Origin: Altererythrobacter sp. H2
Lineage (GTDB): Bacteria > Pseudomonadota > Alphaproteobacteria > Sphingomonadales > Sphingomonadaceae
Direction: 5' to 3'
Assembly: GCF_035319885.1 (NCBI RefSeq)
Contig: NZ_CP141285.1
Location: 1,054,001 to 1,118,000, forward strand
Length of the DNA stretch: 64,000 nt
Shown: positions 32,602 to 40,885 of the stretch, piece after piece
Layout: each line of letters opens with the position of its first letter
How positions within the stretch are numbered: the first letter of the stretch is position 1
Notes under the pieces: model-generated
The model's database searches: none
The model's input: the letters and a program-made list of their open reading frames with translations, nothing else
Told to the model about the DNA's origin: nothing
Position numbers and translations under genes: made by a program

Positions 32602-32696
32602 CGTCACCCCGGACTTGATCCGGGGTCCCGCTTACTTGGCGGAGTAGCACCTAGCCCTGAAGAACAGCGGGACCCCGGGTCAAGCCCGGGGTGACG
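32602..32696. repeat. 95-bp palindromic element, copy 1
   Basis: Two 31-base arms (32602-32632 and 32666-32696) are inverted copies with two differences. Each arm also folds alone: a 7-base GC stem around a CTTGA or TCAAG loop. The arm-to-arm differences are paired changes that keep the stem. A copy of identical length lies at 33147-33241. Confidence 0.9.
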
Positions 32697-33069: not shown

Positions 33070-33146
33070 CGGCAACTTTCCACCCAGTTTCCGACAATCG
33101 CCATCCTCCCAAGCCTGCCTGTACCCAGACCATCGCTTCCACCCTT

Positions 33147-33241
33147 CGTCACCCCGGGCTTGACCCGGGGTCCCGCTTCTAGGCCCAGAAGCGCCGGGCT
33201 CCGAAGAACAGCGGGACCCCGGCTCGGGGGCCGGGGTGACG
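33147..33241. repeat. 95-bp palindromic element, copy 2
   Basis: Arms 33147-33177 and 33210-33241. It has the same length and arrangement as copy 1 and shares GAAGAACAGCGGGAC in the middle. Stem changes between copies are compensated on the other side (A-T to G-C in the left hairpin, G-C to C-G in the right). It ends 21 bases from the GIY-YIG stop codon. Confidence 0.9.
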
Positions 33242-33262
33242 AGTGGTTTGAGGTCGACCCGC

Positions 33263-33562
33263 TTAGATCAGCGTATCGTAGAGATCGTCCCAATCCGGGT
33301 TCGCCTGCTCGATCAGTTCGATCTTCCACGCCCGTCGCCAGCGCTTGAGGCGTTTTTCGTGCGCGATCGCCTCCTCGATGGTGCCGCAGCGGTCGGCCCA
33401 GACGAGGCGGGTGAGGTCATGGTGGCGGCAGAATGCCGAGCCCTTGCCGTCGCGGTGCTGGGTGATCCGTGACGCCAGATCGGACGTGACGCCCAGGTAG
33501 AGCGTGCCGCGATAGCGGTCGGCCATAAGGTAGACCCAGCCGCCTCTGGTTTCGCGCTCCAT
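33263..33562 (-). CDS. Single-domain GIY-YIG nuclease
   Basis: 99 residues, only a GIY-YIG domain: WVYLMADRYRGTLYLGVT supplies the two tyrosine strands, ASRITQHR the catalytic arginine, and AIAHEKRLKRWRR the metal-binding glutamate. It belongs to the UPF0213/YhbQ-like group. The frame stays open upstream through repeat sequence, so translation might start earlier; ATG at 33562 is the first before the domain and has no clear ribosome site. Palindromic repeats bracket it on both sides, which suggests it belongs to a mobile unit. Confidence 0.85.
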   Translation of the reverse strand: MERETRGGWVYLMADRYRGTLYLGVTSDLASRITQHRDGKGSAFCRHHDLTRLVWADRCGTIEEAIAHEKRLKRWRRAWKIELIEQANPDWDDLYDTLI

Positions 33563-33579
33563 CGGGCGAGGGAACAGGA

Positions 33580-33609
33580 AGCGGGACCCCGGGTCAAGCC
33601 CGGGGTGAC
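33580..33609. repeat. Single arm of the palindromic element
   Basis: One right-type arm (30 bases) matches the arm at 32666-32695 exactly. On the minus strand it lies 17 bases before the GIY-YIG start codon, in the position of a promoter or leader. Confidence 0.85.
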
Positions 33610-33813
33610 CAAGTGCCGGTAAGGCAGAGGCCGAATGACCGCTCCAAATCCCCCCTGTCCTACAGCCCCCGGCCCGTGGCATAGCCGTGGAATGACCGCG
33701 CTTCGCCCCTTTCTCCGCCTCTCGCAAAGGGGCATGAACCGGGCGAAGTTTTTTGCCTCAGGACTGTGTAACAAGCGGTCCATGTCACCCTGTAACATGA
33801 GCCCGGTAACACC

Positions 33814-37457: not shown

Positions 37458-38579
37458 TTGCGCCTCGCCATTCTGAAAGAACGCGCGTCCGGAGAGACCC
37501 GCGTTGCCGCCACGCCGGAAACGGTGAAGAAGTTCATCGCGCTGGGCGCATCCGTGGCGGTGGAGGAAGGCGCTGGTGTCAGTGCCTCTATCACCGATGA
37601 GGCCTATCGCGAAGCGGGGGCGGAAGTCGGCCCGGCTGCTGTAGCGGTCAAAGGCGCGGACATCGTGCTCGGCGTGCAGGCGCCCGACCCGGCTTTGCTG
37701 GCCGGAGCCGCATCTGGTGCATGGGTGGCTGCGACCTTCGATCCGTTCGGGCAGAAGCAGCGGGTTGAGGCCTATGCTGGTGCCGGCCTCGAAGCGTTGA
37801 GCATGGAGTTCATGCCGCGCATCACCCGCGCACAGAGCATGGACGTGCTGTCCAGCCAGTCCAACCTCGCCGGGTACAAGGCGGTAATTACGGCGGCAGA
37901 CGAATATGGCCGCGCCTTCCCGATGATGATGACGGCGGCCGGCACGGTCCAGGCGGCCCGGGTGTTCATCATGGGCGTGGGTGTGGCGGGCCTCCAGGCG
38001 ATTGCCACGGCCAAGCGGCTCGGTGCGCAGGTTTCGGCCACCGACGTGCGCTCGGCCACAAAAGAGCAGATCCAGTCGCTCGGCGCCAAGCCGATCTTCG
38101 TCGAGAATGTCGCCGGGATCGAAGGCGAAGGCGCGGGCGGATACGCCACCGAAATGAGCGAGGAATACCAGAAGGCGCAAGCTGAACTGGTTTCTGGCCA
38201 TATTGCCAAGCAGGACATCGTGATCACCACCGCGCTGATCCCGGGGCGTGCTGCTCCGAGGCTGATCACCGACGCACAGATTGCGTCGATGAAGCCGGGC
38301 AGCGTGATCTTCGATCTTGCCGTGGCCCAGGGCGGCAATGTCGAAGGCTCGGTGGCGGACCAGGTGGTTGAACGTCACGGGGTCAAGCTGATGGGCTATT
38401 CCAACACGCCCGCGCATCTTGCCGCCGACGCCAGCGCCCTGTTTGCGCGCAACCTCTACAACTTTCTCTCCGCCTTCTGGGACAAGGAAGCAGGGCGGCC
38501 CGTGCTCGACGAGGAGATCGGCACAGCCGTGCGGCTGACGCAGGGCGGCAAGGTTGTGAACGAGAGGCTGCTGGGTTGA
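37458..38579 (+). CDS. pntAA: Proton-translocating NAD(P) transhydrogenase, alpha subunit part 1
   Basis: 373 residues, the NAD-binding domain I: RLAILKERASGETRVAATPE at the start, AGYKAVITAA and GVGVAGLQAIATAKRLGA for the Rossmann fold. With PntAB and PntB it couples hydride transfer from NADH to NADP+ to proton entry. The start is TTG at 37458, as no ATG fits. The following DUF559 gene has been inserted between this gene and pntAB. Confidence 0.93.
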   Translation: MRLAILKERASGETRVAATPETVKKFIALGASVAVEEGAGVSASITDEAYREAGAEVGPAAVAVKGADIVLGVQAPDPALLAGAASGAWVAATFDPFGQKQRVEAYAGAGLEALSMEFMPRITRAQSMDVLSSQSNLAGYKAVITAADEYGRAFPMMMTAAGTVQAARVFIMGVGVAGLQAIATAKRLGAQVSATDVRSATKEQIQSLGAKPIFVENVAGIEGEGAGGYATEMSEEYQKAQAELVSGHIAKQDIVITTALIPGRAAPRLITDAQIASMKPGSVIFDLAVAQGGNVEGSVADQVVERHGVKLMGYSNTPAHLAADASALFARNLYNFLSAFWDKEAGRPVLDEEIGTAVRLTQGGKVVNERLLG

Positions 38580-38596
38580 ATGGGGCAGTCTCTCAG

Positions 38597-38643
38597 CCTC
38601 CCCGGGACGGGGAGGGGGACCGCGCGCAGCGCGGTGGAGGGGA
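38597..38643. repeat. Left 47-bp terminal inverted repeat of the DUF559 unit
   Basis: This repeat is inverted relative to 38992-39038; the two agree except for one base in a loop and eight bases in the hairpin GCGC-GCA-GCGC (here) versus AGCC-GCA-GGCT (there). The changes keep every pair of that stem. It lies 17 bases after the pntAA stop. Confidence 0.9.
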
Positions 38644-38665
38644 CTCCCGGTTTGTAGCAAGGCCG

Positions 38666-39046
38666 GTGGTCAAACTCGCTCGGGACTTGCGAAAGCATAT
38701 GACGGCCCCCGAGAAGATGCTTTGGCAACGCCTGCGGCTGCGGCCGGGCGGGTTCAAGTTTCGCCGCCAGCATCCGATTGGCCCTTACGTGGTTGACTTC
38801 TGCTGCCTTGCAGAACGGTTGGTGGTCGAGATCGATGGCGCGGCGCATGATCACCCTGACCGGGTAAAGTTCGATGATCGACGTGTTCAATTTATCAAGG
38901 AAAACGGGTTTCGGGTCTTGAGGGTTACCGCTGAACGCGTGCTGCGCGATGTGGCCAACGTTGCCGACGCAATCGTTGCGCGTGTGGCGAATCCCCTCCA
39001 CCAGCCTGCGGCTGGTCCCCCTCCCCGTGCCGGGGAGGCGCATTAA
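38666..39046 (+). CDS. DUF559 nuclease-like protein inserted in the pnt operon
   Basis: About 126 residues from GTG 38666; the same frame is open from TTG 38576, which overlaps the pntAA stop, so the start is uncertain. The core is DUF559, related to Vsr/PD-(D/E)xK nucleases: MLWQRLRLRPGGFKFRRQ, then YVVDFCC with LVVEIDGAAHD holding the likely catalytic D and ExD. The C-terminus is read through the right repeat (PPPRAGEA). The TAA overlaps the pntAB ATG. Bracketing by 47-bp inverted repeats suggests a mobile unit. Confidence 0.85.
   Translation: MVKLARDLRKHMTAPEKMLWQRLRLRPGGFKFRRQHPIGPYVVDFCCLAERLVVEIDGAAHDHPDRVKFDDRRVQFIKENGFRVLRVTAERVLRDVANVADAIVARVANPLHQPAAGPPPRAGEAH
38992..39038. repeat. 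Right 47-bp terminal inverted repeat of the DUF559 unit
   Basis: This is the mirror copy of 38597-38643. Its last bases are GGGGAGG (39032-39038), lying 7 bases before the pntAB ATG, so it provides that gene with a Shine-Dalgarno sequence. It is also translated as the C-terminus of the DUF559 protein. Confidence 0.9.

Positions 39047-39330: not shown

Positions 39331-40885
<1,555 letters not shown>

Follow-up and report, generated by a model that had tools for sequence, protein, structure and literature searches.

The window is a stretch of 64,000 bases (1054001–1118000) of the 3.24-Mb single-contig genome of Altererythrobacter sp. H2. Within it lies a small gene whose 99-residue product matches the GIY-YIG family PF01541 over residues 8–81 (E 1.2e-11); no other Pfam match was returned up to E 0.1. 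Six residues (Y11, Y22, R32, H36, E69 and N88) are invariant across 14 diverse and 34 closer aligned homologues, and from the GIY-YIG family we take these to be the putative catalytic residues. An NPxWxDL motif is found at the C-terminus. The domain match together with the conserved residue set places the protein in the GIY-YIG nuclease superfamily. The AlphaFold2 (AF2) model has a mean pLDDT of 94.2. When used in Foldseek, this model gave no match at E 0.001 or better; the nearest solved fold was that of UPF0213 protein BH0048 (1zg2, E 0.002). Slx1 of the Slx1–Slx4 nuclease came next at E 0.04 to 0.5, thus kinship with this branched-DNA nuclease is suggestive only. No close relative of the protein was found at E 1e-5 in 50,697 phage records.

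The dN/dS ratio of the gene against its Parerythrobacter lacustris copy is 0.20. Nine close GIY-YIG pairs (frameshifted copy L105 left out) gave values of 0.10–0.32, which points to purifying selection on these close pairs. Pairs including L105 gave 0.59–0.74, and together with more distant pairs these span 0.4–1.1; the median across 1010 pairs with moderate pS is 0.43, with some near or above 0.9.

The gene is framed by palindromic repeats (Table 1). The earlier note had described a GIY-YIG-only gene with a 95-bp palindrome 21 bases after its stop codon and a single arm 17 bases before its start, and all of its coordinates are right. The 95-bp palindrome has a minimum free energy (MFE) of -68.4 kcal/mol. 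In the dimers the REP element consists of the tag CGTC, the stem ACCCCGGG, the loop CTTGA and the tail CC; in the 3′ palindrome, the REP nearer the gene departs from this in its stem, ACCCCGGC, and its loop, CCCCGA. The upstream arm as paired with the palindrome spans 33580-33609 and ends 17 nt from the ATG; its tag begins 48 nt before the ATG and differs from CGTC by one mismatch. The gene-less dimer nearby is a candidate non-autonomous form of the unit.

Table 1 Features of the GIY-YIG unit, its neighbours in the window and its relatives elsewhere in the genome (marked own genome)
Feature	Position	Strand	Remarks
GIY-YIG nuclease gene, sole domain, 99 aa	33263..33562	-	PF01541 match
Upstream class-A CGTC-type REP arm	33580..33611	-	tag GGTC, stem ACCCCGGG, loop CTTGA
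Downstream 95-bp palindrome, head-to-head class-A REP dimer	33147..33241	.	21 nt past stop
Inverted arms of the GIY-YIG unit	33144-33179 / 33578-33613		36 nt, 97% complementary
Gene-less head-to-head class-A REP dimer, CGTC outside	32602..32696	.	~0.45 kb from unit
DUF559 ORF	38576..39046	+	PF04480, E 4.2e-32
CCTCCCC-type inverted palindromes of DUF559 unit	38596-38646, 38989-39039		arms 84% complementary
Class-B CGTC REP dimer CGTCATCCCAGCGAAAGCTGGGATC	39353-39434		MFE -58 kcal/mol; no GIY-YIG gene adjoining
Second small GIY-YIG gene, own genome	949258		between CGTCATTGCGAG palindromes
Third small GIY-YIG copy (L004), own genome	668103-668358		broken frame; class-C arms ACCCTGAACTTGTTTCAGGGT / CGTCACCCTGAACTTGTTTCAGGGT

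The repeat core has 13 matches in the 3.24-Mb genome at three or fewer mismatches and the reversed pattern none. The earlier note had also proposed counting the repeat genome-wide together with its share close to GIY-YIG genes, and the count bore the association out: a longer class-A pattern (two or fewer mismatches) found 12 arms, two of them less than 100 bp from the window gene, and the reversed pattern found 0. The probability of at least two of 12 arms lying by the gene is 1.6e-6 for random placement, and 1.6e-4 on the assumption that only 10% of the genome is open to the repeats.

PF01541 has five matches in this genome, three of them of the small type. The remaining two are L003, which we take to be UvrC-like, and L005, a longer GIY-YIG protein; no CGTC REP occurs anywhere in their 3.1–3.2-kb loci. 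A single repeat serving all GIY-YIG genes of this genome was considered and rejected, as the copies carry different classes. It was these differing classes that led to a test of the coupling between protein and repeat.

Generality of the layout and coupling of repeat class to protein clade

Among GIY-YIG genes with full flanks in the named genomes, 57 of 64 have an inverted repeat across their 200-bp flanks (score at least 18), compared with four of 708 other ORFs (100 aa or longer) from the same loci. Restricting the controls to ORFs whose gaps on either side both measure 80 bp or more, which matches the intergenic setting, left four of 173 with inverted flanks. One of the four control exceptions, a non-GIY-YIG gene at 5414-6007 of L082, has CGTCATTGCGAG palindromes on both sides and an inverted-repeat score of 60.5.

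Applied to 125 distinct genes, a REP finder with fixed tag and stem length (xGTC, 8-bp stem, loop) located REPs on both sides in 96 cases, on one side in 16 and on neither in 13; shuffled flanks gave 8/250. These 125 were kept from 140 genes found, omitting those with fewer than 70 matched residues, those running off ends and identical duplicates. Class-A genes with a REP upstream number 64, and in 44 of these the tag starts 47–49 nt ahead of the start codon. The census of the family covers 99 genomes, of which 67 contribute the 150 listed matches. It omits L003 and L005, as different GIY-YIG proteins, and L006 and L100, which are the same places as L002 and L015. A match of some kind occurs in 71 genomes; four of these (G049, G054, G057 and G088) have weak matches only and were counted as lacking the unit. 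The 146 census loci with full flanks have REPs on both sides in 102 cases, on one side in 27 and on none in 17.

The layout extends beyond the family. Of 62 outside-family loci in other Pseudomonadota one was cut; among the 61 scored, inverted flanks occur at 41 and a short-stem REP on one or both sides at 33 (shuffled flanks, 5/610). Some 20 further loci, mostly weak or truncated matches, were left out. No short-stem REP was found at 28 of the 61, several of which have longer-loop palindromes that start with CGTCA. In a plasmid collection five of the 12 loci examined lacked a short-stem CGTC REP. REPs also occur at the copies of Azospirillum lipoferum, Sinorhizobium meliloti (one side) and Aeromonas caviae; the Spirosoma copy has a weak inverted repeat only, and no REP was found at the Photobacterium, Rhizobium tumorigenes, Planktothrix and Subdoligranulum loci. 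The sole matching gene of a Neisseria gonorrhoeae record sits among dRS3-type CGTCATTCCCGC repeats. We note that 'plasmid' records of 2–5 Mb (L249, L250, L255) look chromosomal, the 2.17-Mb Neisseria record being one example.

The repeats were sorted into class A (..CCCGGx, loop CTTGA), class B (..CxGC, loop GAAA, GAAG or GCAG) and class C (..CTGAA, loop CTTGT); a class E (..GTG stem with CTTGA loop) was subsequently joined to A. Both ends could be classed in 89 units, as 50 AA, 27 BB, nine CC, two EE and one AE, with no mixture of A, B and C. Seven more two-sided units have an end outside A/B/C/E. Repeat class and protein clade are inherited together. A FastTree protein tree of 124 leaves (one more was dropped from the 125), 108 of them classed, requires six class changes, where shuffled labels require a mean of 36 and a minimum of 29. 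Shuffling among paralogues within the eight mixed-class genomes required 20 changes on average and never fewer than 12, so that none of 2000 shuffles reached six. Class was predicted correctly from the three nearest proteins of other genomes for 118 of 126 genes, 24 of the 150 census loci being left unclassed. Where a gene had classed paralogues in its own genome (93 genes) the prediction was right in 87, and a random paralogue would be expected to agree in 30.6. The coupling thus holds within genomes, and the pairing is therefore not due to genome background.

The nearby DUF559 gene offers a parallel. We take DUF559 to be PD-(D/E)XK-like. In a sample of 30 of about 100 listed matches, the window's own included, 27 loci have inverted flanks, with palindromes that are mostly CCTCCCC or CCCTCTCCC. 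CGTC-type repeats lie on both flanks of 105 of 146 GIY-YIG loci and of none of the 30 DUF559 loci; for CCTC-type repeats the figures are 0/146 and 24/30. Counting any flank, CGTC-type and CCTC-type repeats occur at 128 and three of the GIY-YIG loci and at three and 29 of the DUF559 loci. No unit among these 146 and 30 loci was crossed on both flanks. Crossing is scant. Within one set of genomes, each of two unrelated nuclease families thus has its own, likewise unrelated, palindromes. Both units place a small nuclease-like gene inside inverted palindromes, and differ in protein family and in repeat superfamily.

Dispersal of the unit and of free repeats

One genome (G071) contains nine copies of one unit of about 460 bp, mostly 84–97% identical, at nine places. 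The shared sequence comprises both arms and about 25–30 bp outside them; beyond this the flanks are unrelated or weakly alike. Four of the nine are shorter by deletion, in two forms (one larger), each present at two places. The deleted copies have therefore multiplied too, as trans-mobilised forms would. No target-site duplication and no exact insertion boundary was found for the G071 copies. The G071 units (L100-L111) also have short outer sequences in common, GCGGACAT... on the left and ...AACGTCCGC on the right, with exceptions; these resemble half-palindromes of a further repeat, which may be the target.

Occupied and unoccupied versions of the same site were also found. In seven Sphingobium plasmids (three of which were read) the unit separates fnrL from a response-regulator gene, and four Sphingobium relatives have the same site without it. 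In one of the latter, TomTYG64, the site reads CGTC-ACCCCGGG-TCAAG-CCCGGGGT-GACG, with tags at both ends. This palindrome equals the product that two arms would give if fused at their shared ACCCCGGG. In Azospirillum lipoferum 4B, sufB and sufC are separated by a class-B unit, which is missing from three relatives; the matched flanks of these unit-less replicons are 95–97% identical to those of 4B. Comparison of the two sites by eye, with inexact boundaries, showed no target-site duplication. In the sufB–sufC gap (L251, L339, L338) the units of Azospirillum and Shinella are both of GIY-YIG type and differ in REP class, and that of Sphingomonas parapaucimobilis is a DUF559 unit; the gap is a shared insertion hot spot within an operon.

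The 51 named long-flank loci reduce to about 36 distinct sites once sharing pairs are grouped. Opposite unit orientations are seen at some shared sites (L036, L074, L037, L038, L040, L044, L079), which either recombination between the inverted arms or separate insertions would produce. The unit in the window lies at folP, and 29 relatives read for about 1.5 kb on either side of folP showed no GIY-YIG match. A match at this site does occur in Parerythrobacter lacustris and, in reversed orientation, in a Sphingobium MAG; a clean empty version of the site was not obtained. Some copies are kept at one site across genera, thus movement is not frequent everywhere.

The earlier note had suggested that the repeats travel with the nuclease. 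The inverted flanks, the class coupling within genomes, the nine dispersed copies and the empty sites support this well, and the enrichment of repeats near GIY-YIG genes in related genomes, on which that suggestion had been staked, was found (57/64 against 4/708). It had also likened the unit to its DUF559 neighbour. That held for the layout, with 27/30 inverted flanks, and failed for the repeats, which are CGTC-type in one and CCTC-type in the other.

REPs were counted by class pattern in the 99 genomes, nearly all of which come from separate genera; reversed-pattern controls were near zero, and repeats beside units were subtracted for the free-REP figures. REPs of class A are present in 53 genomes, of class B in 89 and of class C in 50. 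Free REPs are in excess where the protein of their own class is present: without correction for phylogeny, rho between free REPs and the cognate protein class across the 99 genomes is 0.52 for A, 0.34 for B and 0.58 for C. A joint rank regression gave diagonal coefficients of 0.45, 0.34 and 0.53, and no off-diagonal one above 0.22; class A proteins and class C REPs correlate at rho 0.37. The median number of REPs is 41 in the 67 genomes with a listed GIY-YIG unit and three in the 32 others (p 3e-8). Units occur in five of 25 REP-poor genomes. Conversely, nine genomes with at least 20 free REPs have no class A–C GIY-YIG gene among the loci read (five no match, three a weak match, one a broken copy); their repeats could be orphans or could depend on a second mobiliser. 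Inspection of the match lists revealed many plus/minus pairs about 45–130 bp apart.

A probable minimal mobile unit and the alternatives

We consider it probable that the locus in the window is a minimal mobile unit, composed of a GIY-YIG gene and inverted CGTC REP ends that its nuclease recognises, and that this activity spreads both the unit and the dimers. In such a scheme the REPs would be the ends of the unit. The nuclease would act on its cognate REPs, probably as a hairpin or cruciform, and break the DNA near the CGTC tag. Repair of the break by copying would then spread the unit. Gene-less REP dimers of the same class could be spread in trans. Both kinds of spread would thus follow because the nuclease acts on cognate REP structures and the break is repaired by copying.

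A homing-like process, in which a selfish GIY-YIG gene invades existing cognate REP dimers that are merely its targets and spread otherwise, would predict the identical class coupling through target specificity. Consistent with it are the bare same-class palindrome at the unit-less TomTYG64 site and the genes that lie between full dimers (in Azospirillum, and L001 in the own genome). We nevertheless find it unlikely. The upstream tag of class-A genes is held at its fixed distance of 47–49 nt from the start in 44 of 64 cases, and in G071 the arms, the gene and some 25–30 bp outside were copied as one. The TomTYG64 palindrome, with CGTC and GACG at its ends, fits two fused arms and not one REP, and REP abundance tracks the protein. 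The abundance data argue in the same direction against a nuclease of the host, or a domesticated one, whose task would be to trim or remove REP cruciforms and so shield the chromosome: REPs of the cognate class are more numerous, not fewer, where the gene is present. Multi-copy dispersal and internally deleted copies are also difficult to fit to such a role, which seems quite improbable despite the purifying selection on close pairs, the weak fold relation to Slx1 and the sites kept across genera.

It is very improbable that there is no functional link at all, the REPs being terminators or RNA stabilisers, or REPs and small genes simply sharing permissive intergenic hot spots. REPs are indeed mostly intergenic (PMC3733652), and the sufB–sufC gap is occupied in three genera, by GIY-YIG units in two of them and by a DUF559 unit in the other. 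The intergenic-matched controls have inverted flanks in just 4/173 cases, however, class coupling persists inside genomes, and not one unit has both flanks crossed between the GIY-YIG/CGTC and DUF559/CCTC pairings. The last possibility has the GIY-YIG genes as passengers, with CGTC REPs moved in trans by RAYT-type Y1 tyrosine transposases. A Y1_Tnp match is present in 17 of the 99 genomes, including the own genome, where it has an internal stop. REP number is independent of Y1 presence (median 31 against 27.5, p 0.24); among 46 REP-rich genomes nine have Y1 and 41 a listed GIY-YIG unit, and none of eight Y1 loci read has a CGTC REP within 400 bp. These comparisons disfavour RAYT mobilisation, which we find barely credible.

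If the minimal mobile unit is real, it would be a new type of mobile element, with a bare GIY-YIG domain as its sole gene. It would also explain the source of common intergenic repeats, perhaps with Neisseria dRS3 included. Whether lone GIY-YIG proteins mobilise CGTC REPs across Proteobacteria (Neisseria dRS3 included), and DUF559 proteins do likewise for a third palindrome superfamily, is a wider claim that we hold to be evenly balanced. If true, at least three unrelated folds (HUH, GIY-YIG and DUF559) would each have evolved tagged-palindrome elements in autonomous and gene-less forms. The class-specific pairing makes the mobiliser question testable with a single 99-aa protein and a single oligonucleotide, and provides more than 100 natural nuclease–hairpin pairs for recognition studies.

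Comparison with known systems

Literature searches, with most subscription papers and preprints outside their coverage, returned no report of a GIY-YIG/CGTC or DUF559 pairing. Searches by repeat sequence motif returned nothing on such repeats except a Neisseria paper. The accessible parts of PMC6006769 and PMC12306157 contain no link between GIY-YIG and CGTC REPs. The CGTC-tagged REP superfamily was defined in 2013 without a dedicated transposase and occurs in five phyla (PMC3733652); the GIY-YIG nuclease would be a candidate for the mobiliser it was left without. By that description (Di Nocera 2013), members of the superfamily, including Neisseria dRS3, share with the present repeats the tag, 8-bp stems, 4–5-nt loops, mostly CC tails and head-to-head dimers. 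Their first and second stem pairs are almost always A-T, whereas class A here has C-G second: stems of class B mostly start AT... and those of class A AC... or GC.... The commonest loops in a search fixed on xGTC and 8-bp stems were CTTGA, CTTGT, GAAG, GCAG and GAAA, and the commonest tails CCC (87) and CCA (62). By the CGTC tag, the stem (8–9 bp in the superfamily), the 4–5-nt loop, the CCA-like tail and dispersed multi-copy occurrence, mainly as head-to-head dimers, the repeats fit this superfamily.

The protein has the GIY-YIG fold in common with UPF0213/YhbQ-like proteins (1zg2, BH0048) and with Slx1. The sequence match to 1zg2 stops short of the NPxWxDL motif, and the 99-aa gene has no zinc domain. 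YhbQ has been assigned to the Slx1 family (PMC7017083).

Free-standing GIY-YIG homing endonuclease genes are likewise small selfish genes with a target preference. They carry separate DNA-binding domains, and are not known to be bounded by palindromic repeats of their own class. A classical insertion sequence with terminal inverted repeats has a DDE or HUH transposase, and the unit here has neither by Pfam. The closest resemblance in layout is to the REPtron (RAYT with GTAG REPs and REPINs). There too a small gene lies between inverted tagged palindromes, head-to-head dimers occur elsewhere without a gene, and a constant tetranucleotide tag accompanies a variable stem. The REPtron encodes an HUH Y1 transposase and is flanked by GTAG tags, whereas the present unit has PF01541 as its sole Pfam match and xGTC/CGTC arms. 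We favour the view that the GIY-YIG nuclease, an unrelated enzyme, would play the part for CGTC REPs that RAYT transposases have for GTAG REPs. The GIY-YIG unit is probably REPtron-like in its working, yet is no REPtron, for its enzyme and its tag are others.
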